Source: Lachnospiraceae bacterium
GTDB taxonomy: Bacteria; Bacillota; Clostridia; Lachnospirales; Lachnospiraceae
Direction of reading: 5' to 3'
Assembly: GCA_017416465.1 (NCBI GenBank)
Contig: JAFQCK010000047.1
Span: forward strand, 23,817 to 87,816
Length of the DNA stretch: 64,000 nucleotides
Numbering within the stretch: the first letter of the stretch is position 1; each line of letters opens with the position of its first letter. Below the pieces are notes generated by a model, which did not search any database, was not told where the DNA came from, and saw nothing but the letters and a program-made list of their open reading frames with translations. This document shows, piece after piece, positions 10,955-54,990 of the stretch. The position numbers and the translations under genes are program-made.

Positions 10955-11095
10955 TTGTATAAAATAGTCGTTCGTGATATCCTTATTAACATTTTCCTTG
11001 TTTATTGCGTATTGCGCCTTTAGGCGCACAACGGAGTGCTAGCAATAAAAAGGAAAATGTTAATAGGGATTATCACTTCAACTCATTTTATACAA
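10955..11095. repeat. Long inverted repeat IR-A (flgK2/flgL gap)
   Basis: Arms of about 54 bp pair over most of their length, for example AACATTTTCCTTGTTTATTGC near 10989-11008 against GCAATAAAAAGGAAAATGTT near 11043-11062. A GC-rich core hairpin TGCGCC-ttta-GGCGCA is at 11013-11028. The outermost arm bases TTGTATAAAAT (10955-10965) are the inverted copy of the last flgK2 codons and stop (11085-11095). The core shares words with IR-B: GCGCC/GCGAC-CTTT loop and CAACGGAGTG. Confidence 0.85.
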
Positions 11096-31527: not shown

Positions 31528-31589
31528 AACTTTTATCCTACTTTCCTAACATTTTTATATTTACTACTTTTCGTTTCTATTGCCTCATG

Positions 31590-31786
31590 AAATATTTTGA
31601 TTATGTATTATATACAGAAATCAGACAAATTAACAACTCAACCTACAGGTGCTTATGCTCCCGTCACTACTTAGGCGCTGTATTTTAGCGCCTTATGTAG
31701 TGCTACGAGGAGCATGCAGTGCAAACGTGCCTGTGTTGAGTTGTTAATTTTGTTTGATTTTTATTATCTATTAATCAAAATATTTT
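31590..31786. repeat. Long inverted repeat IR-C (fabF/fabZ gap)
   Basis: Perfect 16-bp arms AAATTAACAACTCAAC (31627-31642) and their complement (31735-31750) lie within longer imperfect arms. The outer left arm contains AAATATTTTGATTA (31590-31603), the inverted copy of the last fabF codons KYFD-stop. The centre is CACTAC (31665-31670), AGGCGCT (31673-31679), loop, AGCGCCT (31687-31693), GTAGTG (31697-31702). IR-E has the same design with compensating changes. Confidence 0.88.
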
Positions 31787-33003
31787 TTGAAAATCACACT
31801 TGCATTATGTCCACCAAATCCAAGTGAATTTGACATTGCATACTTAATCTCTTTTTCTCTTCCAACATTTGCAACTATATCCAAATCACAGTTTTCATCT
31901 GCTTCTTTATAATTAATTGTTGCAGGAACAAATCCATCTTTAACAGCCATCGCTGTAATAATACCTTCAACTGCTCCACTTGCACCTAACAAATGTCCTG
32001 TCATTGATTTTGTAGAACTCATCATAAGATTACCTGCATTCTCACCAAAAGCCTTCTTAACTGCCATTGTCTCACACTTATCATTCATAGGTGTAGAAGT
32101 TCCATGAGCATTGATATACTCAACTTCCTTAGCTGTAATGCCTGCATCTTTCATAGCTTTTTGCATACATTTAGCTGCTCCGCTTCCATCTTCTGATGGT
32201 GCTGTGATATGATAAGCGTCACAGTTTGCACCATAACCTACTACTTCTGCATAAATTTTAGCATTTCTGTTAAGAGCATGTTCTAACTCTTCCAATACAA
32301 GAATTCCTGCACCTTCGCCCATTACAAATCCACTTCTTTCTTTGTCAAACGGAATTGATGCACGATTTGGGTCCTCAACTTGAGCTAATGCTTTGAGTGA
32401 AGTAAATCCACCGATACCAAATTCTGTTATACAGCTTTCACTACCACCACATAACATTACATCTGAATATCCGTCTCTGATATGTCTGAATGCATCACCA
32501 ATCGCATTTGTACCACCTGCACACGCTGTTACCACCGAGCTGCACATTCCATGTATTCCATGTTCAATAGCAATTCTTCCTGCTGCCATATTAACAATAG
32601 CTGAAGGTATAAAGTAAGGCGAAATTCTGTCAAATCCTTTATGTTCACCTCTTGTATGCTCTTCCTCAATAGTTCCAAGACCGCCAATACCACTTGCAAC
32701 AATTACTCCACAGTCTTCTGATTCATTAGAAAAATCTATCTTAGAATCTTTTACTGCTTCATCAGCTGCAATAAGAGCAAGTGCTACGAATCTATCCATT
32801 TTTCTTAATTCTTTTTTATCAATATGCTCTTCAAGATTAAGATTTTTAACTTCGCCTGCTACCTTAACCTTTCTATCTGTTGTATCATAATGTGTTATGT
32901 AATCAATACCACATTTTCCTTCTTTTACACTTCTCCATGTCTCTTCTACGTTATTTCCAATAGGAGTTACTGCTCCCATTCCTGTAATTACAACTCTTCT
33001 CAT
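31771..33003 (-). CDS. fabF: 3-oxoacyl-ACP synthase II FabF
   Basis: 410 residues from ATG 33003 (GGAG 6 nt upstream; the frame is open to 33084). MRRVVITGMGAVTPIGNN is the usual start. The Cys-His-His triad is visible: Cys161 in VVTACAGGTNAIG, His in INAHGTSTPMND and His in SSTKSMTGHLLGASG. It elongates acyl-ACP with malonyl-ACP. Its last codons are part of inverted repeat IR-C. Confidence 0.96.
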   Translation of the reverse strand: MRRVVITGMGAVTPIGNNVEETWRSVKEGKCGIDYITHYDTTDRKVKVAGEVKNLNLEEHIDKKELRKMDRFVALALIAADEAVKDSKIDFSNESEDCGVIVASGIGGLGTIEEEHTRGEHKGFDRISPYFIPSAIVNMAAGRIAIEHGIHGMCSSVVTACAGGTNAIGDAFRHIRDGYSDVMLCGGSESCITEFGIGGFTSLKALAQVEDPNRASIPFDKERSGFVMGEGAGILVLEELEHALNRNAKIYAEVVGYGANCDAYHITAPSEDGSGAAKCMQKAMKDAGITAKEVEYINAHGTSTPMNDKCETMAVKKAFGENAGNLMMSSTKSMTGHLLGASGAVEGIITAMAVKDGFVPATINYKEADENCDLDIVANVGREKEIKYAMSNSLGFGGHNASVIFKKYFD

Positions 33004-33115
33004 ACTAATCTCCATTTCTATCAAAACAAATTTATTTCCGAAGACAATACAATTAACAATATTTGTACTCCGTTTCAAATTCACATACGAATTCTCAACA
33101 CTTAATCGTTATTTT

Positions 33116-33859
33116 TTATATCATACCACCATCAACACATATAACCTGGCCTGTTACATAAGCTGATTCCTTCATAGCAAAAAATGCCACTGTGTTCGCT
33201 ACTTCCTCAGGTTTTCCAGTCCTTTTTGCAGGTATTTGATTAAGCATTGCTTCCTTAACTTTTTCATTTAAAACATCTGTCATATCAGTTTCTATCATTC
33301 CCGGTGCCACTGCATTTACAGTAATATTTCTTGATGCAAGCTCTTTGGCTGCCGACTTTGTAAGTCCGATAATTCCTGCTTTCGAAGCACTGTAATTTGC
33401 CTGTCCTGCATTACCGCTTACCCCAACAACACTGCTTATATTAATAATTCTTCCATACCTCTGTTTCATCATCATCTTTGTTACAAGCTTCATACAGTTA
33501 AATGCACCTTTTAAATTAACACTTATAACATCATCAAAATCCTGCTCACTCATAGCCATAATGAGTTTATCTTTTGTTATACCTGCATTATTTACTAATA
33601 TATCAACTTTTCCAAATTCTTTTACAGCTTCATCAATCATTACCTGGCACTCATCTAATTTAGCCACATTAGCCTTCACCGCAATTGCTTTTACTCCTGC
33701 CTCTTCGCAAATCTTAACAGTTTCATCTGCTAACGCCTGATTTCCGGAATAATTTACAACAACATCCGCACCTCTTTTTGCAAGTTCTAGCGCAATAGCT
33801 CTACCAATTCCACGACTTGCACCGGTAACCACTGCAACCTGTCCACTTAATCCTTCCAT
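33116..33859 (-). CDS. fabG: 3-oxoacyl-ACP reductase FabG
   Basis: 247-residue short-chain dehydrogenase. The NADPH loop TGASRGIG is at 12-19, NNAG at 90-93, catalytic Ser near 142, Tyr156 and Lys160 in YSASK, and DMTDVL follows PGMIETDM. It reduces 3-oxoacyl-ACP to 3-hydroxyacyl-ACP. Start is 3 nt after the fabD stop. Confidence 0.96.
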   Translation of the reverse strand: MEGLSGQVAVVTGASRGIGRAIALELAKRGADVVVNYSGNQALADETVKICEEAGVKAIAVKANVAKLDECQVMIDEAVKEFGKVDILVNNAGITKDKLIMAMSEQDFDDVISVNLKGAFNCMKLVTKMMMKQRYGRIINISSVVGVSGNAGQANYSASKAGIIGLTKSAAKELASRNITVNAVAPGMIETDMTDVLNEKVKEAMLNQIPAKRTGKPEEVANTVAFFAMKESAYVTGQVICVDGGMI

Positions 33860-33862
33860 ATC

Positions 33863-34792
33863 TTATATCCTTTCCAAAACCTGTTCTAAGCCACTTAAAT
33901 CTTCAATTACATATGTATTAATTGAAGGCGCTGTCTTTTTCACAAATCCACTTAACGCTTTACCCGGTCCGATTTCGATAATTGTATCTACACCGTTTTT
34001 TTCAAGCAACTCTATTGTATTTTCCATATAGATACTGCTCTGTACCTGTTTTTCAAGTAATTCTTTAATATTTTCATCTGATTGTAATTCATTAGCTGTA
34101 GTATTAAAGATTACAGGCACTTTCATCTCGCCAAAATTAATATTTTCAAAATATTCTTTAAGTTTATCGCCTGCCGGTTTCATAAATTTTGTATGGAAAG
34201 GTCCACTAACCTTTAACGCAATACATCTCTTAGCACCTGCCTCTTTAGCCTTAACTTCTGCCTCCTCTACAGCACTTATATCGCCACAGATTACATACTG
34301 ACCTTTGCAGTTAAAGTTAGAAACTGTTACATATTTTTCATCTGATGAACCTGTAACCTCTTTACAAATTTCATCTAATACCTGACTTTCAAGACCCATT
34401 ACAGCACTCATTTTACAATTTATTCCTTCTGCTGCCTCTTCCATCGCTTTTCCTCTAAAAGAAACCAAATCAAGTAACTGTTGTGAACCGAAAACACCTG
34501 ATGCATGGAGTGCACTATATTCTCCGAGACTAAGTCCTGCCACATAATCCGGCACAATTCCTTTTTCATTTAACACCCCAATAACACCTGCCGCAAAAGC
34601 CGCCATACAAGGCTGTGTATATCTCGTCTGCGACAACTGCTCCATTGGACCTTCAAACATTAATTTCTTTATATCAAAATCCGCTTTAAGAGAATCGATT
34701 ATATTTCTGAACGTTTCATTGTTATCATATAAATCTTTTCCCATTCCAACTTTCTGACTTCCCTGTCCTGCAAATAAAAATGCTAATTTCAA
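33863..34792 (-). CDS. fabD: Malonyl-CoA:ACP transacylase FabD
   Basis: About 309 residues. The start is read as TTG 34792: GGAGGG (34800-34805) lies 7-8 nt upstream and the protein then begins LKLAFLFAGQGSQ; an ATG at 34807 would place the start on its own ribosome site. TTG overlaps the TGA of the upstream gene (TTGA), so translation is coupled. Active-site Ser is in AGLSLGEYSAL near residue 85-95, with His in GPFHTKFM. It loads malonate onto ACP. Confidence 0.93.
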   Translation of the reverse strand: MKLAFLFAGQGSQKVGMGKDLYDNNETFRNIIDSLKADFDIKKLMFEGPMEQLSQTRYTQPCMAAFAAGVIGVLNEKGIVPDYVAGLSLGEYSALHASGVFGSQQLLDLVSFRGKAMEEAAEGINCKMSAVMGLESQVLDEICKEVTGSSDEKYVTVSNFNCKGQYVICGDISAVEEAEVKAKEAGAKRCIALKVSGPFHTKFMKPAGDKLKEYFENINFGEMKVPVIFNTTANELQSDENIKELLEKQVQSSIYMENTIELLEKNGVDTIIEIGPGKALSGFVKKTAPSINTYVIEDLSGLEQVLERI

Positions 34793-35859
34793 GAGTTTTC
34801 CCTCCATTCAATTTCTATTTCTTTCATAAGTTCTTCTACTGACACTATTTTATCTATTCTTGGGGCATTTGCTCCACAAAAGAACAAGCCGTCTTCTTTA
34901 TTTCCTTTTACCGCTTCTATTAATGCTCTGCTTATACAATACGGTGTAAGATTTCCATGAGGACATGCTGTAAGACATTGATTACATCTGTCCGGTGTAA
35001 ACTTTTCACCTGCATTTAGCCTTTTAATTAATGGTGTGAGCAATGCTCTTCCGGGCATTCCAACCGGACTTTTTACTATAGTGATATCTTCTTCCTTTGC
35101 TTCTACCACCATATTTTTGTATTCTAACGAAGCATCACATTCCTCTGTAGCTATAAATCTTGTGGCAATCTGTACTCCACTTGCACCCAGCTTAGTAAAT
35201 TTTGCCATATCTTTTCCATCGAAGACTCCTCCTGCTACAAATACGGGAATTTTTCTACCATATTTCTGCTCGTATGGTTCAATCGCTGTTAATACTTCCG
35301 GTAAAATCTGTTCAAGTGCAGGAGCAGTTCCATCAATTATCTCTTCTTTTTTAAAACCTAAATGTCCACCTGCTTTTGAGCCTTCTATAATCATAAAGTC
35401 CGGCACAACATTACACTTTGTATCCCACCTTTTACAAATGAGTGCTGCCGCCTTTGCACTTGATACAATAGGTGCCGCTGCTGTAGCAGTTCCTTTTGTA
35501 AGATTAGGAAGTGTAAGCGGAAGTCCTGCACCTGATATTACCGCATCTATCCCTGATTCTATGGCAGCCTTTATAGTTTCTTCATAATGACTTACTGCTA
35601 CCATTGCATTTATTGCCACCATTCCTTTTCCTTTAGCAATATTAAAAGCTCTTTTTATTTCATCTTTTAATGCTCGTATATTTGCTTCAAAAGGATTTTT
35701 CATAAAATCTTTTTCTCTATATCCTGCATTTACAGTACTTATAACACCCATTCCACCACATGCAGCTACATTACCTGCAAGATTTCCAAGTGATACTCCT
35801 ACTCCCATTCCGCCTTGAATAATTGGAATATTTAAGGTCTTATTTAAGATTTCAACCAT
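34789..35859 (-). CDS. FabK-like nitronate monooxygenase-family protein with C-terminal Cys cluster
   Basis: 356 residues. The first ~270 residues are an FMN-dependent TIM barrel of the FabK/2-nitropropane dioxygenase family: IPIIQGGMGVGVS, FMIIEGSKAGGHLG, VFVAGGVFDGKD. Beyond this is a C-terminal extension with CNQCLTACPHGNLTPYC (C-x2-C-x3-C-x8-C), suggestive of an iron-sulfur cluster. Its start overlaps the end of fabK by 16 nt. It could be a second enoyl reductase, an electron-transfer partner or an unrelated oxidoreductase; the substrate is unknown. Confidence 0.82.
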   Translation of the reverse strand: MVEILNKTLNIPIIQGGMGVGVSLGNLAGNVAACGGMGVISTVNAGYREKDFMKNPFEANIRALKDEIKRAFNIAKGKGMVAINAMVAVSHYEETIKAAIESGIDAVISGAGLPLTLPNLTKGTATAAAPIVSSAKAAALICKRWDTKCNVVPDFMIIEGSKAGGHLGFKKEEIIDGTAPALEQILPEVLTAIEPYEQKYGRKIPVFVAGGVFDGKDMAKFTKLGASGVQIATRFIATEECDASLEYKNMVVEAKEEDITIVKSPVGMPGRALLTPLIKRLNAGEKFTPDRCNQCLTACPHGNLTPYCISRALIEAVKGNKEDGLFFCGANAPRIDKIVSVEELMKEIEIEWRENS

Positions 35860-36788
35860 AATTTAAGATTATCTCCTTCCATTGTTTTAAAAGCACCTTC
35901 ATAAAGTTCTTCGAAAATCTTCGCAATCGGTTTAATCTCTTTAATCTGTCCTGCTACCTGTCCTGCCATTAATGAACCTGTAGCTGTATCTCCATCAAAT
36001 ACTGCTCTTCTAAGAGAACCTAATGTAAACTTTTCAAGTTCCATCTTATCTGCGCCCTCTTTTTCTCTACGCACATATTCTCTGGCCATCTGATTTTTAA
36101 GTATTCTTACAGGTGTTCCACCAATTCTTCCTGTTACGATTGTGTCATTGTCTTTAGCTTTAATAACTGCCTGCTTGTAGTTATCATGAATTGGACACTC
36201 CTCACTAGCAAGTAAACATGTTCCAAGCTGTATTCCACTTGCTCCAAGTGCAAATGCTGCAAGCAACTGTCTTCCGTCTGCAATACCACCTGCTGCAATT
36301 ACAGGAATATTTAAGTTATCTACCATCTGTGGAACTATCGACATTGTTGTCATTTCACCGATATGTCCACCGCTTTCAGTACCTTCGGCAATAATATAAT
36401 CTGCTCCTGCTTTCTCGAGCTTCTTTGCAATAAGTACACTTGACATAACAGGCATAACTACTGTCCCATTTTCCTTCCACTTATCAATATATTTAGAAGG
36501 ATTTCCTGCACCGGTTGTTATAACTGTTATTTTTTCTCTATACACAAGTTCTGCCATCTCAGGTGCCTCCGGGTTCATAAGCATAATGTTTACACCGAAA
36601 GGCTTATCAGTAAGTTGTCTGCATTTATGAATATTTTCCTCTAACATCGCAACATTCATTCCACCGGCACCAATAAGACCAAGTCCGCCGGCATTTGAAA
36701 CTGCTGCTGCAAATTCTCCTGTTGCTATATTAGCCATTCCACCTTGAATAAATGGATATTTTATACCTAACTTTTTATCTATTCTCAT
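35844..36788 (-). CDS. fabK: Enoyl-ACP reductase II FabK
   Basis: 314 residues. YPFIQGGMANIATGEFAAAVSNAGGLG, the flavin loop AAGGIADGRQLLAAFALGASG and TEGTESGGHIGEM with the conserved His are FabK features. It is an FMN enzyme that performs the last reduction of each elongation cycle in place of FabI; no FabI or FabL is seen in the operon. AGGAAAGG precedes ATG 36788. Confidence 0.93.
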   Translation of the reverse strand: MRIDKKLGIKYPFIQGGMANIATGEFAAAVSNAGGLGLIGAGGMNVAMLEENIHKCRQLTDKPFGVNIMLMNPEAPEMAELVYREKITVITTGAGNPSKYIDKWKENGTVVMPVMSSVLIAKKLEKAGADYIIAEGTESGGHIGEMTTMSIVPQMVDNLNIPVIAAGGIADGRQLLAAFALGASGIQLGTCLLASEECPIHDNYKQAVIKAKDNDTIVTGRIGGTPVRILKNQMAREYVRREKEGADKMELEKFTLGSLRRAVFDGDTATGSLMAGQVAGQIKEIKPIAKIFEELYEGAFKTMEGDNLKLWLKS

Positions 36789-36815
36789 AATTTATCCTTT
36801 CCTACAGTTTATTTT

Positions 36816-36890
36816 TAACGGTTCAGAGCTAAGCAGATTTGGATAACTTAGGAAACACGTAGTGTTTTCACGCTTGGCTCTGAGTTGTTA
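36816..36890. repeat. Inverted repeat IR-D (fabH/fabK gap)
   Basis: Arms TAACGGTTCAGAGCTAAGC (36816-36834) and GCTTGGCTCTGAGTTGTTA (36872-36890), with an inner AAACAC-gta-GTGTTT hairpin. The TAAC-nn-TTCAGAG end and AGATTTGGATAACTT loop are shared with IR-F. Confidence 0.85.
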
Positions 36891-36897
36891 CTTTTTA

Positions 36898-37836
36898 CTA
36901 TACCTCTAACAACACACCACCCCATGTAAATCCTGCACCGAAACCTACGCATAATACTTTAGCTCTTGCTTTTAACAAACCTTTTTCATTCATTTCATCT
37001 AAAACGATTGGAATACTTGCCGCTGATGTATTACCATAATTATAAATGTTTATGTATAACTTTTCTTCCGGAATATCTAAGAATTTCTGAACACTTCTTA
37101 TTATTCTTTCATTTGCCTGATGGCAAACAACATAATCTATATCATTTACTGTTAAGTCAGCTTCCTCTAAAACCTGCTTTGCCACTTTTGTAATATTTTG
37201 CACCGCAAATTTGAACACTTTTTTTCCATCCATATATACATATGGTTTGTCTGAGCCATGCCCTTCACAACCAAGTGCCTCTACATTTCCTTCGCTACCT
37301 AATATTCCAACAAATTTCTTGTTGTCATTTTTCTTAATTATAGCTGCTCCTGCACCGTCACCAAATAATACACAAGTATTTCTGTCTGTCATATCAAGTC
37401 TGGTGGATATCTGTTCACTACCAATGACTAATGCATAAGGCTTATCTTGTCCTTCAATTAGCGAAGCTGCAACCTTTAATCCATACAAGAAACCTGAACA
37501 AGCCGCATTTATATCAAATGCTACTATCCCGGAAGGTAGTCCCAATTTTTCTTGTAATACACAAGATACAGATGGTGTCTGGTAATCCGGTGTAAATGTC
37601 GCAACAATTAAAAGACCGATTTCTTCCTTAGCTATTCCTGCTTTTTCAATAGCTTTACTTGCTGCCTCATACGCAAGATTCCAGTTTTTTTCTTCCTTAC
37701 AGAAATTTCTTTGCCTAATCCCTGTCCTTGATGTAATCCATTCGTCATTCGTATCTACTATTTTACTTAAATCATCATTTGTTATAATGTTTCCCGGTAT
37801 CGCTCGTCCCGTAGAAACTAAATCTATACCTATCAT
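36898..37836 (-). CDS. fabH: 3-oxoacyl-ACP synthase III FabH
   Basis: 312 residues. Catalytic Cys113 lies in DINAACSGFLYGL, His in VCHQANERI and Asn in NYGNTSAASIP. It starts fatty acid synthesis by condensing acyl-CoA with malonyl-ACP. It lies 5 nt after accA in the same operon. Confidence 0.96.
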   Translation of the reverse strand: MIGIDLVSTGRAIPGNIITNDDLSKIVDTNDEWITSRTGIRQRNFCKEEKNWNLAYEAASKAIEKAGIAKEEIGLLIVATFTPDYQTPSVSCVLQEKLGLPSGIVAFDINAACSGFLYGLKVAASLIEGQDKPYALVIGSEQISTRLDMTDRNTCVLFGDGAGAAIIKKNDNKKFVGILGSEGNVEALGCEGHGSDKPYVYMDGKKVFKFAVQNITKVAKQVLEEADLTVNDIDYVVCHQANERIIRSVQKFLDIPEEKLYINIYNYGNTSAASIPIVLDEMNEKGLLKARAKVLCVGFGAGFTWGGVLLEV

Positions 37837-37841
37837 AGAGG

Positions 37842-38726
37842 TTACCTCGCTTCTTTTCTTACCATGCCATGTATGCTATCCATTTTCCTAAACTTATGAT
37901 ATCTTGATTTAGCTATAGCATCACTTGTCATTTTCCCATATTTTTTTAATTCTTTACAAAGAATTTTATCTAATTCATCATACACTTCAAATGGATTAGC
38001 CTGCATTCCGCCTTCCGGCTCTGAAACAATCTCATCTATTAATTCATAATTTTTCAAATCTCTCGCTGTTATCTTCATCAAATCACAAGCCTTTGCACTC
38101 TTACTTGAATCTTTCCATAAGATTGATGCAAATCCTTCCGGTGAAAGTATTGAATATACCGCATTTTCAAGCATTATAATACTATTTGCAACAGATATTG
38201 CAAGAGCACCACCACTACTTCCTTCTCCCGTAATAACTGTAATAACAGGTACTTTTAATGTACTCATCTTAGCAATCGAATCCGCTATCGCTATTGCCTG
38301 ACCGTTTTCTTCTGCCTTTATTCCCGGATATGCCCCCGGTGTATCAACAAATGTAATAATTGGTCTACCAAATTTCTCAGCTTGTTTCATAAGTCTTAAG
38401 GCCTTACGATATCCTTCAGGTCCCGGCATCCCAAAATTACATGCCATATTTTCTTCAAGAGTCTTTCCTTTTCTATGACCAATAACTGTCACAGGAATAT
38501 TATGAAATAATGCAATACCACCAAGAATTGCATTATCCTCTTTTCCAAGTCTGTCGCCCTTTAATTCTACAAATTCATCAAATAATGCTGTTATAAAGTC
38601 AATTACCTTAGGTCTTTTTGTATCTCTTGCCAAATGAACTCTATCATATGCTGTTAACTCTTTTTTTCCTTCTGTATTAGTGATAATACTATTATCATTC
38701 ACATTATTTTCCATAACTTCGCTCAA
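37842..38726 (-). CDS. accA: Acetyl-CoA carboxylase carboxyltransferase subunit alpha
   Basis: 294 residues with the carboxyltransferase pattern: FVDTPGAYPGIKAEENGQ, GEGSSGGALAISVAN and SILSPEGFASILWKD. With AccD it transfers CO2 from carboxybiotin to acetyl-CoA. No accB or accC gene is in this operon, so the biotin carrier and carboxylase must be elsewhere. Confidence 0.95.
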   Translation of the reverse strand: MSEVMENNVNDNSIITNTEGKKELTAYDRVHLARDTKRPKVIDFITALFDEFVELKGDRLGKEDNAILGGIALFHNIPVTVIGHRKGKTLEENMACNFGMPGPEGYRKALRLMKQAEKFGRPIITFVDTPGAYPGIKAEENGQAIAIADSIAKMSTLKVPVITVITGEGSSGGALAISVANSIIMLENAVYSILSPEGFASILWKDSSKSAKACDLMKITARDLKNYELIDEIVSEPEGGMQANPFEVYDELDKILCKELKKYGKMTSDAIAKSRYHKFRKMDSIHGMVRKEAR

Positions 38727-38738
38727 CCTAATTACCTC

Positions 38739-39602
38739 CTATTTAATTTTTTTGTGTACATATAATAATTTTCCTATAACTTCTTTTAACTCACTTCTAT
38801 GTACAACCTTGTCTACAAAACCATGTTCTTCCTGAAATTCTGATTTCTGAAATCCTTCCGGTAACTTTTCATTAATAGTCTGCTCTATTACTCTAGGTCC
38901 TGCAAATCCTATAAGTGCATCAGGCTCAGCCAAAATAACATCACCAAGCATTGCAAAGCTCGCACTTACACCACCTGTAGTCGGATTAGTAAGAACTGAT
39001 ATATAAAAGCCTCCATTTTCTGAAAACTTTTCAATTGCAGCACTCGTCTTAGCCATCTGCATAAGCGAGAATAAACCTTCCTGCATTCTTGCTCCACCGC
39101 TCGCTGAAACTATTACTAACGGAAGGGTATTTTTCATAGCATACTCAACTGCTAGTGTAAGTTTTTCTCCTACAACAGTTCCCATGCTTCCCATCATAAA
39201 TGTAGAGTCCAAAACAACTATCTCAGCTCTTTGTCCGTTTATATTACCTTCACCTGTTATAATTGCATCTCTTTTTCCTGTTGTTTCCTTTAATTCTTTA
39301 AGTTTTGTTCTATAGCCTGGAAATTTAAGCGGATTACCCGAAATCATATTTGCATTTTGTTCTTTAAATGTCCCCTTATCCGCAAGCTGTCTTACTCTGT
39401 CTCTGGCTGACACTGTAAGATGCTTTCCACAATTCGGACAAATAAATAACTTTGCTTTAAGAAGTGCTTTGCTATATTCATTTTTACATCCGGAACAAGT
39501 CATCTCACCAAGTTCTTCTGTTTTCTTAACACTAAATGTCTCTTCTTTTATATTTTTAACTGAAAAATATTCTTTTTTCTTTACTCCAAACAAAGTACCC
39601 AT
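38739..39602 (-). CDS. accD: Acetyl-CoA carboxylase carboxyltransferase subunit beta
   Basis: 287 residues. An N-terminal four-Cys zinc finger (C36, C39, C55, C58) is followed by the crotonase-like core: VVSASGGARMQEGLFSLMQMAKTSAA and PTTGGVSASFAMLGD. It pairs with the downstream accA product. Preceded by a 232-nt gap after acpP that contains a hairpin. Confidence 0.95.
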   Translation of the reverse strand: MGTLFGVKKKEYFSVKNIKEETFSVKKTEELGEMTCSGCKNEYSKALLKAKLFICPNCGKHLTVSARDRVRQLADKGTFKEQNANMISGNPLKFPGYRTKLKELKETTGKRDAIITGEGNINGQRAEIVVLDSTFMMGSMGTVVGEKLTLAVEYAMKNTLPLVIVSASGGARMQEGLFSLMQMAKTSAAIEKFSENGGFYISVLTNPTTGGVSASFAMLGDVILAEPDALIGFAGPRVIEQTINEKLPEGFQKSEFQEEHGFVDKVVHRSELKEVIGKLLYVHKKIK

Positions 39603-39769
39603 GGTATCATTTTCACCCTTTCTTAAACAATATTTTTTATAGTTTTATTACCTCTATATAAACATTTTTGTTTAATCTCTTTAAAAACCAAAAATGTATT
39701 TTTCAACTTTTATTAACTAATTTTTTAAATAAATATTTTTAAATACTCTAACCTTATCTCTTAAAATCA

Positions 39770-39810
39770 GAAGCTATTTCAGACACCTTTATTTGTCTAA
39801 AATAGCCTTC
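39770..39810 (-). terminator. Hairpin between acpP and accD (possible attenuator)
   Basis: GAAGCTATTTCAGACA pairs with TGTCTAAAATAGCCTTC with small bulges. The minus strand continues TGATTTTAAG, so the T tract is poor. It may lower readthrough from acpP into accD, which would keep acyl carrier protein more abundant than the enzymes. Confidence 0.45.
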
Positions 39811-39834
39811 CTAAATTTCATCTTATCTTATCAA

Positions 39835-40077
39835 TTATTTTGTATTCTCATCAATATATGTAACAATATCATTAACAGTTACGAACTTTGCAAGATCTTC
39901 ATCAGCAATTGTAATATCAAATGCTTCTTCTAATGCCATACTAAGTTCTGCAGCATCTAATGAATCCGCTCCAATGTCATCCATCAAACTAGCTTCCATT
40001 GTAATCTTATCTTCTCCACAACTAAGAGTTTCCATAATAATTTCTTTAACTTTATCAAATGTCATTGTTTTACCCAT
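39835..40077 (-). CDS. acpP: Acyl carrier protein
   Basis: 80 residues from ATG 40077, or 76 from ATG 40065. The phosphopantetheine serine is in DDIGADSLDAAELSMALEEAF. It is an acidic four-helix protein that carries growing acyl chains and is first gene of the fab operon. The likely ribosome site (AAGAGG) is about 25 nt upstream, separated from the start by the small hairpin TCACT-tttt-AGTGA (40082-40095), so the start is not certain. Confidence 0.93.
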   Translation of the reverse strand: MGKTMTFDKVKEIIMETLSCGEDKITMEASLMDDIGADSLDAAELSMALEEAFDITIADEDLAKFVTVNDIVTYIDENTK

Positions 40078-40223
40078 GCATTCACTAAAAAGTGATACTA
40101 CCTCTTAACAGGTCGTGTAGGTAGTTGCATAATCCTTTCTTTATAAAATTAATGATGCTATAATCAACCTGTCGAAATTTAAATTAATTTAGTTAAATAT
40201 TTTTAGATAAATTAATTGAGCTT

Positions 40224-40252
40224 ATTTTATATTATACATGTAATGTTGTCAA
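40224..40252 (-). promoter_or_regulatory. Sigma-A promoter of acpP/fab operon
   Basis: On the minus strand TTGACA (40247-40252), 17 bp, TAAAAT (40224-40229). It places a leader of roughly 140 nt before acpP. Confidence 0.65.
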
Positions 40253-40303
40253 GAAAAATTTTTATTAAATACAAACATTACTTCGCTTGCACGGTTTTTG
40301 CCA

Positions 40304-40337
40304 TAAAAAAACTACAGGTACTTTCACCTGTAGTTTT
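40304..40337 (-). terminator. Terminator of the DUF308 gene
   Basis: AAACTACAGGT (40309-40319) pairs with ACCTGTAGTTT (40326-40336); the minus strand continues with seven T. A clear Rho-independent terminator. Confidence 0.88.
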
Positions 40338-40348
40338 CCATCGTTCAT

Positions 40349-40969
40349 TTATTGTTCTAAAGCTTCCATATCTTTTATATGGTCTTTAATCTTTTTATTC
40401 AATATAACAAAGCTCACTAAATCTGTGATTCCGCTAATCATCAATATTACTCCAAGAACTCTTAACACCAATCCGCTTACTCCAAATGGATTGATTATTG
40501 CGAAGGCTCCTGCCAAAATTACAACTATTGCCATAATAATCATCCATAAGCTTTTATCTTTATTGATTCTTCTGGCATCAAGGGCCGTCTGAAGCTTTGT
40601 AAGTCCATTTATAAAAATCAGAACTCCTATAACAGTTGGTATAACAGATACAATTAGTCTGTAAAGAATAAAAAACAAAATTCCAATTATCGTTAAAGCA
40701 ATACCTATCACAAGCTTATTCTTCTTTATATTATCTTTATAATCAGATACTAAATATATTATTATAAATACCACACCTGCACATAATATAATAGAACCAA
40801 TTGTATAGCATATTGTCCTTGTTACTCCTAACGGATTTATTGCAAGCACTAATCCCAAAAGTATAAATAATATAGCAATTAAAACTGATTGTAACTTTAT
40901 ACCTTTTAATTCTTTTAATTCATCAATTTCTTCTTTTCTCTTTTTTGCTTTACTTTTAAAAAACATCAA
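40349..40969 (-). CDS. DUF308/HdeD-type membrane protein
   Basis: 206 residues with about six hydrophobic segments (for example LQSVLIAILFILLGLVLAI, TIGSIILCAGVVFIIIYLV, LWMIIMAIVVILAGAFAII) and charged ends. Internal repeats of the pattern LGxxLxINPxG suggest the DUF308 family, duplicated trimers of helices related to HdeD. Its function is unknown. Monocistronic with its own terminator. Confidence 0.75.
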   Translation of the reverse strand: MMFFKSKAKKRKEEIDELKELKGIKLQSVLIAILFILLGLVLAINPLGVTRTICYTIGSIILCAGVVFIIIYLVSDYKDNIKKNKLVIGIALTIIGILFFILYRLIVSVIPTVIGVLIFINGLTKLQTALDARRINKDKSLWMIIMAIVVILAGAFAIINPFGVSGLVLRVLGVILMISGITDLVSFVILNKKIKDHIKDMEALEQ

Positions 40970-41028
40970 ATCACCCTTTCATATGGTGCACACATTAATG
41001 AAATAATCATTTAACACTTTAACAACAA

Positions 41029-42054
41029 TTACTCAATAACCTTAATCCATCCTTTTGGTGCTTCAATTCTTCCCATCTGGATTCCTGTTAATGTGTCATA
41101 TAACTTCTTAGTTACTTCACCCATTTCATCCATTCCACTTGGAAGACAGATTTCCTTACCATGGTCAACAATCTTTCCAACAGGAGATATAACTGCTGCT
41201 GTTCCACATAATCCACATTCAGCAAAATTCTCTAACTCATCAAGATATACTTCTCTTTCTTCTACTTCCATTCCTAAGTATTCTTTAGCAACATATACTA
41301 ATGAACGTCTTGTTATAGAAGGAAGTATACTATCAGACTTAGGTGTAACAAGCTTATTATCCTTTGTTATAAAGATAAAGTTAGCTCCACCTGTCTCTTC
41401 AACCTTAGTTCTTGTCTTAGGATCCAAATACATATTCTCAGCATATCCTTCTTCGTGAGCTGTAACAATTGCATGTAAGCTCATTGCATAGTTAAGTCCT
41501 GCCTTAATATTACCTGTTCCGTTTGGAGCAGCTCTGTCAAAATCACTAACCTTAATAACTATAGGCTTTGCACCGCCCTTAAAGTATGGTCCAACAGGTG
41601 TAGTGAAAATTCTGAACTGATACTCATCAGCAGGCTTTACACCAATTACAGGTGAACTACCAAACATATATGGTCTGATATAAAGTGTTGCTCCTGAACC
41701 ATATGGTGGTACATAAGCCGCATTAGCCTTTACAGTCTCAACTACTGCATCAATAAACTTCTCCTTCGGGAATACAGGCATCTCTAATCTCTTAGCAGAA
41801 TCAATCATTCTGTCAGCATTCAAATCAGGTCTGAAACATACAATCTTTCCATCTTCTGTTGTATATGCCTTAAGTCCTTCGAAACAAGTCTGAGCATACT
41901 GTAAAACACCTGCACATTCACTGATAACAATATTAGAGTCTTCTGTTAAAACTCCATCGTCCCATTTACCATCTTTGAAATTAGACACATATCTCATGTC
42001 TGTCTTCATATATCCAAATCCAAGATTTGACCAATCAATATTTTTCTTTTCCAT
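41029..42054 (-). CDS. ilvE: Branched-chain amino acid aminotransferase
   Basis: 341 residues from ATG 42054 (GGAAG upstream; TTG 42063 is less likely). It is a fold-type IV PLP enzyme: QTCFEGLKAYTTEDG, LYIRPYMFG, the PLP lysine in NGTGNIKAGLNYA, EETGGANFIFI and AECGLCGTAAVISPVG. It interconverts Leu, Ile and Val with their 2-oxo acids. It appears to be transcribed alone. Confidence 0.95.
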   Translation of the reverse strand: MEKKNIDWSNLGFGYMKTDMRYVSNFKDGKWDDGVLTEDSNIVISECAGVLQYAQTCFEGLKAYTTEDGKIVCFRPDLNADRMIDSAKRLEMPVFPKEKFIDAVVETVKANAAYVPPYGSGATLYIRPYMFGSSPVIGVKPADEYQFRIFTTPVGPYFKGGAKPIVIKVSDFDRAAPNGTGNIKAGLNYAMSLHAIVTAHEEGYAENMYLDPKTRTKVEETGGANFIFITKDNKLVTPKSDSILPSITRRSLVYVAKEYLGMEVEEREVYLDELENFAECGLCGTAAVISPVGKIVDHGKEICLPSGMDEMGEVTKKLYDTLTGIQMGRIEAPKGWIKVIE

Positions 42055-42126
42055 AATAATCAACTTCCTTTCACATATGATTTATTTTGACATATTATTA
42101 TAACAAATAAACCGAATACATAAAGT

Positions 42127-42795
42127 TTACTCTTGCTTTTTCATACTGTCAAGAAAATTATGCAATTCTTCAACTGTATTAATTATTCTAAAAGGATTGC
42201 AATCTACAAGTTCCTGTATTTCTCCATATCCATAGCCAATTAAAATACAAGGAATACCACATTCACTCGCACCAAAATAATCAAATTTTCTATCACCAAC
42301 CATAACCGCTTTGTTAGGTATAAAGTCATCTAACTTTGAAATTGCATATCTTATTACATCTGCTTTTTCAACCCGACTTCCATCCATTGTGCTTCCTGCT
42401 ACCACATCAAAATATTTCAGTATATCAAAATGCTCAAGAATCTGTGTTGCATATCCTTCCGGCTTAGAAGTTGCAAGCACTACCCTAACACCACTTTCAT
42501 GCAAATCCCTTACAAGTTCTTTAATTCCATCATATAAATAACATTCAAAAATACCTCTATCCTTATAATACACTCTATATTCATCCACAGCCTCTAAAGC
42601 CTGTTCATGAGAAAAACCATAAAACTTCTCATAAGACTGGCTAAGAGGTGGTCCAATAAACGGACATAACGAATCTAAATCAGTAACCTCAATTCCAAAC
42701 TTGCGAAGTGAAAACTGAATTGACTTGGTAATTCCTTCCTTCGGGTCAGTCACAGTTCCATCCAAATCAAAAAAAACATACCTTAAATCTTCCAT
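42127..42795 (-). CDS. HAD-family phosphatase (phosphoglycolate phosphatase-like)
   Basis: 222 residues from ATG 42795. HAD motifs: FFDLDGTVTDPKEGI (nucleophile and acid/base Asp), motif II VVLATSKPEG, and KAVMVGDRKFDYFGASECGI with motif IV Asp. The helical cap between motifs I and II is the GPH type. The substrate cannot be told from sequence. It lies downstream of buk, with IR-E in between. Confidence 0.85.
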   Translation of the reverse strand: MEDLRYVFFDLDGTVTDPKEGITKSIQFSLRKFGIEVTDLDSLCPFIGPPLSQSYEKFYGFSHEQALEAVDEYRVYYKDRGIFECYLYDGIKELVRDLHESGVRVVLATSKPEGYATQILEHFDILKYFDVVAGSTMDGSRVEKADVIRYAISKLDDFIPNKAVMVGDRKFDYFGASECGIPCILIGYGYGEIQELVDCNPFRIINTVEELHNFLDSMKKQE

Positions 42796-42849
42796 ATTAT
42801 ATAAAAACCTCCTAATTACGCACAACTTTTATTTTAGATTAAAAATTTT

Positions 42850-43020
42850 TTATTAGCATACTATTAAGCGATGCCTTTTACAAAACAAACCGCAGGTGCT
42901 ATGAGGCGGTCAGTACTTAGGTGGCGTATTTTGCCACCTTATGTACTGCTACCAGCCGAATGCAGCGAAAGCGTGCCTGCATTGTTTTTGCAAAAGGCAT
43001 CGCTTATTAACTCATAAAAA
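42850..43020. repeat. Long inverted repeat IR-E (buk/HAD gap)
   Basis: Outer arms TTAAGCGATGCCTTTT (42864-42879) pair with AAAAGGCATCGCTTATT (42991-43007), and pairing extends outward as TTTTTTAT. The centre is CAGTAC (42911-42916), AGGTGGC (42919-42925), loop, GCCACCT (42933-42939), GTACTG (42943-42948). The 3' half has ATGCAGCGAAAGCGTGCCTG, close to the IR-C sequence at 31714-31733. Confidence 0.88.
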
Positions 43021-43036
43021 AATCCATACTTAAACC

Positions 43037-49767: not shown

Positions 49768-50028
49768 GTTTTTATAATAAATTTAATAAAACAATTATGC
49801 CCTTTACTTAGTTCTACAAATATAAGTTTTTTCTAAGTGCTTTATAGTTCGATTTTGTAAACCATGACGTAACCGGCGTATATTCGCCATCGTGGCTCAG
49901 ATACGCCTTTAGCCGACATCGTGTCGGCTAATTACTGGTTTATTTATAAAGCACTAAGAAAAACTAATATTTGTATCAATGCGTAAAGGGCATAAATGTT
50001 TATAAAATTAATCTATAAAGTTTTACTC
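49762..50028. repeat. Long inverted repeat IR-G (between convergent LCP gene and mfd)
   Basis: Strongly paired arms: ATTATGCCCTTTAC (49791-49804) with GTAAAGGGCATAA, and TAAGTGCTTTATA with TATAAAGCACTAA. Pairing extends outward to GAGTAA (49762-49767, the last LCP codon and stop) against TTACTC (50023-50028). The core has TAGCCGACA-tcg-TGTCGGCTA (49910-49930) and GGCG/CGCC. It is the longest of the family, about 265 bp. From 50029 to 50141 nothing is seen. Confidence 0.85.
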
Positions 50029-54805: not shown

Positions 54806-54837
54806 TTAAGTCCACCTTCCCAATACATTATATTAAT

Positions 54838-54990
54838 TATGTAACTATTCAGAACCAATCTCGAAAATACAACGTATTTCCTCGCTATGACGTATCCGCC
54901 ATATAACTTTACTAAAATATGCTCACGTATGCAAGCATTCATCGCCTACTTTAATAAAGTTGTATGGTTCTGAACAGTTACTAAATCATA
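54838..54990. repeat. Long inverted repeat IR-H (glgD/spoVG gap)
   Basis: TAACTATTCAGAACCA (54842-54857) pairs with TGGTTCTGAACAGTTA (54965-54980). An inner pair is ATATAACTTTA with TAAAGTTGTAT, and the centre has ATATGC-tcac-GTATGC-like elements. Both flanks carry TTATG, the right one being the end of glgD. The TAAC-nn-TTCAGA terminus is the same as in IR-D and IR-F. Confidence 0.85.

Follow-up and report, generated by a model that had tools for sequence, protein, structure and literature searches.

In the excerpts of the sources used here, the predicted structure of ERIC is one long stem-loop (PMC2267715), transcribed structural motifs in bacterial repeats of the miniature inverted-repeat transposable element (MITE) type are reviewed (PMC2229807), REPs are given as 20-40 bp long (PMC3733652), and the TwoAYGGAY motif is graded as probably an RNA and probably not cis-regulatory (PMC2864571). 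Rfam types the last of these as Cis-reg. We analysed 64,000 nt of DNA from a Lachnospiraceae bacterium (contig JAFQCK010000047.1), referred to below as the window, in which two long hairpins, IR-C and IR-E, lie between genes. We consider them to be, quite probably, copies of a non-autonomous, MITE-like DNA transposon, the core of which keeps its fold on one strand and most likely does so as RNA. This transposon-like identity is new relative to an earlier, sequence-only reading of the same DNA.

That reading had placed IR-C at 31590-31786 and IR-E at 42850-43020, with a common 3' segment ATGCAG-n-GTGCCTG and with paired bases that differ between the two hairpins. Both hairpins were found at these positions, both contain the segment, and all the paired differences are present (CACTAC/GTAGTG against CAGTAC/GTACTG, AGGCGCT/AGCGCCT against AGGTGGC/GCCACCT, and CGT/ACG against GGT/ACC, IR-C being named first). 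On the plus strand the predicted fold of IR-C (31580-31795) had an energy of -91.8 kcal/mol (z = -13.15) and that of IR-E (42850-43025) an energy of -71.8 kcal/mol (z = -7.20); neither was equalled by any of 200 dinucleotide shuffles. Two copies alone cannot establish covariation. Therefore, we analysed more copies.

The genome from which the window comes (G000, here the own genome) is a 3.7-Mb draft in 172 contigs. BLASTN with IR-C identified 11 other places in it at E<1e-9, IR-E not being among those 11. We built a covariance model, R1, from 13 own-genome copies, IR-C and IR-E included. Searching the own genome with R1 returned 16 copies above 130 bits (the 13 used for building and 3 new ones), one at 52.5 bits, and further weaker matches together with reverse-strand shadows. 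When 40 relatives were searched, matches at E≤0.001 were present in 10 genomes, the own one included, with 23 matches in G016, 18 in G019 and 10 in G010. The distribution was patchy, as 6 of the 8 other genomes of the same genus had no match at this threshold. We then surveyed 397 genomes from this taxonomic family, counting the own genome, and 100 matched at E≤1e-6; at most 8 candidates were scored per genome here, and the filters were stricter than in the search of the 40 relatives. Building a covariance model from the hairpins and running it on this genome and its relatives, as had been proposed, recovered a large dispersed family.

In the 13 own-genome copies, 24 of 43 pairs carried changes on both sides, and the covariation score was 0.38 in comparison with 0.14 for shuffled data, the structure having been derived from those same rows. 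Further, 81 copies from other genomes were placed in an alignment based only on sequence, which we scored against a structure written by hand from the own-genome model. We observed that 86% of the cells paired and that 29 of 30 pairs had changed on both sides. The score was 0.501, as against 0.188 ± 0.007 after shuffling and 0.11 or less when the partners were slid. These 81 rows were chosen from 113 sequences, and the remaining 32 (longer G018 copies, short copies and near-duplicates among them) were left out by eye, which favours well-aligned rows; an extra base in several G016 copies shifts one stem, lowering the count. The claim of covariation was therefore borne out, and stem positions varying independently of each other were not what the larger alignment contained.

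After removal of 4 reverse-strand shadows and duplicates, 262 distinct copies could be fitted to R1. These later counts leave out 9 of the 43 model pairs (9, 14-17, 20-22 and 41), which are poorly formed or rich in wobbles outside the own genome. The 34 pairs used are 83-99% Watson-Crick, and each of the 8 outer-stem pairs shows all four Watson-Crick types. Selection on the folded form, one of the two possibilities raised by the sequence-only reading, is supported by the pairing kept both in these fitted copies and in the 81-copy alignment.

Such changes could also appear with no selection on the fold, if template switching during replication copied one arm from the other (quasi-palindrome correction). 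We consider this unlikely. It fits with two-sided Watson-Crick changes far outnumbering wobble intermediates, and with the long outer arms (mostly 10-35 bp), which are locus-specific yet near perfect (median alignment score of 16 for a copy's own arms and 7 between arms of different copies). However, when nearest copies differed at one or two pairs, one-sided changes prevailed (18 vs 8 and 23 vs 5, respectively), while at four or more differing pairs two-sided changes prevailed (62 vs 21 and 95 vs 38, for example). Changes that are one-sided first and two-sided at greater divergence argue for stepwise compensation and not for one arm serving at once as the template of the other. Moreover, wobble-type positions fixed in the sequence stay uncorrected, and G·T mismatches exceed A·C mismatches, as described below. 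Between sister species (three genera, some copies per genome) we detected no orthologous copies, with which local selection could be told apart from selection during spreading, the blastn matches above 200 bp being only element-sized.

The mobile unit was exposed by near-identical copies in G190, where near-perfect terminal repeats GGGTGTCAAAAGCCCTTA frame the hairpin symmetrically and host DNA is directly repeated on their outer sides. This 17-nt repeat (≤3 mismatches) was present there 46 times in forward and 32 times in reverse orientation, as compared with 3 and 5 for the control, and 16 repeat pairs, counted from the matches listed, were spaced 261-262 bp. Elsewhere the terminal repeat is TAGGYAATTGCGAAACTC. 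An autonomous relative with such terminal inverted repeats (TIRs) would be expected to end in TAGGTAATTGCGAAACTC or GGTTCGGGTGTCAAAAGCCC. In G211, TIR-A was found 44 times forward and 44 times reverse, the reversed pattern only 2 and 3 times. We surveyed TIR pairs in 1.89 Mb of loci (L001-L020 skipped, overlapping loci kept) and obtained 66 TIR-A pairs in the 200-219 bp bin and 28 TIR-B pairs in the 260-279 bp bin. The spacing in relatives is usually about 202-212 or 271-274 bp, and units of about 200-275 bp leave no room for an internal transposase gene.

Target-site duplications (TSDs) were detected in 48 of 89 deduplicated TIR-A units, 38 of them 10-12 bp long, and in 13 of 22 deduplicated TIR-B units, each exactly 7 bp long, while mismatched flanks gave 1.2% for TIR-A and TIR-B alike. 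The test covered units with and without the core and allowed one mismatch; for TIR-A the longest duplication tested was 12 bp. The two lengths suggest two transposases, and therefore that the same core rides in two backbones. Copying of the hairpin as a unit, the second possibility raised earlier, is supported by the fixed TIR spacing and the TSDs in the relatives. We found no credible Rfam 15 match for the element in the window at E<1, nor in 7 further loci and 20 loci with TIR-A units at E<0.1; four weak matches in the 7-locus and 20-locus scans fall away from it. The element is MITE-like with a conserved folded core, was not found in Rfam 15, is widespread, and is very well supported by covariation.

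We wanted to know which form is folded. If the palindrome mattered only in double-stranded DNA, G·T and A·C mismatches would be expected in equal numbers. In the model-fitted copies G·T exceeded A·C, both in the outer stem (90 vs 35) and in the core (91 vs 59). Counted copy by copy, G·T was the more frequent of the two in 73 copies and A·C in 27 for the outer stem, the corresponding numbers for the core being 64 and 32; a sign test on these counts is not strict, as the copies are related. A stricter count of the outer stem gave 65 vs 29. The loop of the side hairpin in the core is of the GNRA type in 242 of the 262 copies (GAGA in 83, GAAA in 69, GCAA in 47, GGGA in 24, and others) and of the GNYA type in none of the 262. 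The GNRA loop is a hallmark of RNA; GCGAAAGC is a very stable DNA hairpin too. Given the surplus of G·T over A·C in the stems and the GNRA type of the loops, one strand folds, most likely as RNA, so that we favour RNA over single-stranded DNA as the probable acting form.

Single-stranded DNA would be the selected form if the hairpin were of the REP/REPIN kind and were moved by a Y1 (HUH) transposase, which we regard as improbable. The one-strand asymmetry fits this explanation too. Furthermore, 12 copy pairs are separated by under 500 bp, and in 11 of them the 5' sides face each other; these head-to-head doublets resemble the oppositely oriented REP units, just as the CGTCCGT that follows most G016 copies resembles the CGTC tag, both as described in the excerpt of PMC3733652. 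REPs and REPINs are 20-40 bp palindromes with a GTAG/CGTC tag and a Y1 RAYT transposase, from which the present element departs by its size, TIRs and TSDs. The members of a doublet may, besides, belong to different families. The TIRs with TSDs of 7 and 10-12 bp point instead to a DDE-type transposase.

Several results weigh against the transposon with an RNA core. Among the TIR pairs listed in the 1.89 Mb of loci, none belonged to an autonomous element with the same TIR. IS4/IS231 and IS256 are transposase families that we take to be candidates for the observed duplication lengths; transposases with PF01609 were absent from 4 of 5 element-rich genomes and present in 1. The TIR-A motif was present on both sides in only 55 of 235 copies (permuted motifs gave 2.7 on average and 50 at most). 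Of the 235 copies, 99 reached a distal-arm score of 10, as against 5.5% of mismatched pairs; many copies are therefore old or of another TIR type. In a survey of 16 TIR-A units picked for their lengths, 4 (62, 76, 120 and 136 bp) were without most of the core, which suggests that the core is not strictly needed for movement. A lax, strand-neutral stem count gave 175 G·T vs 155 A·C in the outer stem, which is hardly any strand bias, and 41 vs 12 in the core, with AT-rich flanks interfering. Nearly all changes were from one Watson-Crick pair to another and wobble pairs were rare, as a DNA hairpin would also give. In the own genome, finally, the distal arms are only degenerate and locus-specific and the 17 copies show no detectable TSDs, direct repeats scoring ≥7 in 8 of 17 copies and in 40% of mismatched flanks, which is no signal.

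The own-genome copies look old. The distal arms of IR-C are nonetheless perfect over 14 bp, and those of L021, L024 and L027 also score at least 13. The fabF-fabZ junction, where IR-C is located, is short and empty in G003 and G007, and in G022 and G018 no such hairpin follows fabF; similarly, L134 is filled and L162 is empty at the corresponding site. For IR-C and IR-E themselves, the transposon reading rests on the homology of core and outer stem to copies that bear TSDs, together with the empty site of IR-C. We rejected the idea that the right arm of IR-C is an inverted copy of the end of fabF, as the C-termini of FabF vary freely in relatives, and as a similarity to the distal arm of L021 could be seen by eye. 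We prefer a transposon end over a copied gene end, but this is not decisive.

None of 263 distinct copies was located inside an open reading frame (ORF) of ≥120 aa. In the 169 copies with both neighbours, 55 were in sense and 68 in antisense between co-directional genes, 22 lay between convergent and 24 between divergent genes, and no preference for an orientation was observed. These numbers bear on a structured noncoding or cis-regulatory RNA that is fixed and not mobile. Such an RNA would agree with the strong covariation, the GNRA loop and the one-strand asymmetry, but with the TIRs, TSDs and empty sites, no evident gene association, and 55 sense vs 68 antisense copies, we hold it to be very improbable. 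An intergenic motif should not be taken for a gene or a riboswitch on the strength of covariation alone, since TwoAYGGAY, despite its Rfam type, behaves here as a dispersed repeat. A terminator or insulator recruited between genes is scarcely credible, for the hairpins, though stable, intergenic and often close to gene ends, are enriched neither at convergent gene pairs nor in one orientation.

We also looked for a recurrent mobiliser-like neighbour by all-versus-all blastp of 847 flanking ORFs, and found none in the 15 largest clusters. A neighbouring mobiliser gene was rejected, as these clusters, named by eye, look like cellular genes (ABC transporters, response regulators). In two species, unrelated hairpins were seen in the same intergenic gap, one of this family in L021 and a different one in its counterpart L193, which suggests that some gaps are repeatedly colonised. 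In G007, the HAD-like gene beside the neighbour of IR-E (L148) has, by eye, about 100 nt of hairpin-rich DNA within its coding sequence that is absent from the homologous genes compared with it; an in-gene insertion of another palindromic repeat is possible.

Given the transposon reading, we propose that the unit, about 200-275 bp long and nearly wholly palindromic, would be arranged from the outside inwards as a TSD, a TIR, an outer stem (10-35 bp in most cases) and a conserved core measuring about 90 nt. The predicted core consists of a middle stem, an apical stem with a loop of the GUAUUUU type, and a side hairpin of 2 bp closed by a GNRA loop. The element would move as a unit, with a transposase supplied in trans presumably cutting and joining it, in line with the TIRs and TSDs seen in relatives. 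Its core stays folded on one strand, and RNA within read-through transcripts is the most likely form. Selection may favour the fold for either of two reasons: insertions between co-transcribed genes could be better tolerated with it, or it could promote multiplication of the element. Once inserted, copies would diverge, and lineages that keep the fold would persist.

The architecture of the element was variable. Of the same 16 TIR-A units, 7 (259-263 bp) had a second small core beside the apical stem. Two G118 units of 344 and 351 bp (L440 and L441) had the same block of four additional near-perfect hairpins at the core's inner loop, and their arms differed. The fold grows and shrinks at the inner loop, and the stem is kept.

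Table 1. Positions in the window of the parts of IR-C and IR-E and of the TwoAYGGAY match.
Feature	Position	Strand	Remarks
IR-C, whole palindromic element	31590..31786	+	between FabA-like (fabZ) gene and beta-ketoacyl synthase (fabF) gene
IR-C, left distal arm AAATATTTTGATTA	31590..31603	.	14-bp perfect arms (locus L033)
IR-C, right distal arm TAATCAAAATATTT	31772..31785	.	overlaps end of fabF reading frame
IR-C, match to covariance model R1 (outer stem and core)	31620..31759	+	133.9 bits, G000:C17:55436-55575
IR-C, upper stems CACTAC/GTAGTG and GGCGCT/AGCGCC around GTATTTT loop	31665..31702	+	sequence, fold, alignments
IR-C, small side hairpin, GNRA loop GT-GCAA-AC	31719..31726	+	sequence, model, loop count
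IR-E, outer stem (24-nt arms, 92% complementary) and core	42862..43009	+	between HAD-family hydrolase gene and acetokinase-family gene
IR-E, match to covariance model R1	42868..43005	+	132.7 bits, G000:C17:66684-66821
IR-E, upper stems CAGTAC/GTACTG and GGTGGC/GCCACC	42911..42948	+	sequence, fold, model
IR-E, small side hairpin, GNRA loop GC-GAAA-GC	42965..42972	+	sequence, loop count
TwoAYGGAY RNA (RF01731)	49811..49979	-	sole Rfam match in the window; separate dispersed hairpin family

Two more long inverted repeats are located in intergenic gaps of the window (10979-11070 and 54836-54986). They had no Rfam or R1 match and may represent other dispersed hairpin families.

A pattern scan of named genomes gave at least 119 matching stretches, and most of the titles shown were Lachnospiraceae; Roseburia porci, Coprococcus catus, Anaerocolumna and Mobilitalea were among the matches listed. 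Some matches came from drafts named Muribaculum, Bacteroidales or Gastranaerophilales (e.g. L190, L230 and L242), the isolate names of which all begin with NALB. We consider misplaced contigs more likely than true hosts in these cases. Two viral contigs (L298 and L299) also matched. A 165-nt variant copy was observed in a phage tail operon (L298, L299 and L268), in L299 between the tail terminator and tail sheath genes; therefore phages can carry the element.

The head-to-head arrangement was not limited to pairs of this family. A long hairpin of any kind was present 30-420 nt away on the 5' side of 22 of 227 copies and on the 3' side of 2 of 227 at a score of ≥16, and 47 vs 9 such neighbours were counted at a score of ≥12, doublet members counting for each other. 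TwoAYGGAY was the partner in three head-to-head pairs of the own genome and in one of G016. In 17 spacers compared at E<0.01, we found no common cargo between head-to-head copies apart from an 18-nt AT-rich match and a 21-nt match within one locus. In locus L310 of G293, five copies are crowded into 2.2 kb; two head-to-head pairs among them have spacers of 24 and 77 bp, with a 21-nt segment in common.

TwoAYGGAY itself was found in 4 of 40 genomes, with 8 matches in G000, 18 in G001, 20 in G012 and 7 in G016. Its outer stems were locus-specific, and its distal inverted repeats did not clearly exceed the control, with 10 of 29 copies at score 9 (control 9.8%) and 3 of 29 at score 12 (control 0.3%). 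It may itself be a transposon-borne structure. Going beyond the transposon reading, one could tentatively see the core as a mobile RNA passenger with a folded function of its own, carried on at least two transposon backbones, growing by the insertion of stem branches. It would then be one member of a broader class of mobile structured RNAs that includes TwoAYGGAY, a reported RNA motif, and in which different core families are paired head-to-head around short spacers. We think of this extension as possible but doubtful.

Drift is what one usually expects of the interior of a non-autonomous transposon. In the present element the interior covaries very strongly, and the copies come from a quarter of the genomes sampled in a major family of gut bacteria, which raises the question of whether some bacterial MITEs carry functional RNAs. 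A search of the literature at the level of titles and abstract openings, with subscription literature mostly outside its scope, found no account of this hairpin family.

Among the known systems, TwoAYGGAY resembles the family in its long stem with a conserved core, its multiple copies and its divergent pairs with the family. Its stems are followed by CGTCC in G001 and, directly or nearby, by CGTCCG in G016, as are most G016 copies of the family. However, its core is different and there is no Rfam cross-match, the RF01731 covariance model matching neither IR-C nor IR-E in the window and nothing in the 20 loci with TIR-A units.

ERIC/IRU/RU-1, YPAL, RUP, Correia/NEMIS and bcr1 are, like the element, short, multi-copy, mostly intergenic and foldable repeats. 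In contrast to these repeats, as judged by their descriptions, the element occurs in another host group, has one folded core in two TIR/TSD backbones, carries branched insertions within the fold and shows very extensive covariation across genera. With REP, REPIN and BIME sequences it shares a palindromic nature; according to the excerpt of PMC3733652 these, too, are often close together in opposite orientation and many are plausibly transcribed. Unlike REPs, the element is about 200-275 bp long and has TIRs and TSDs.

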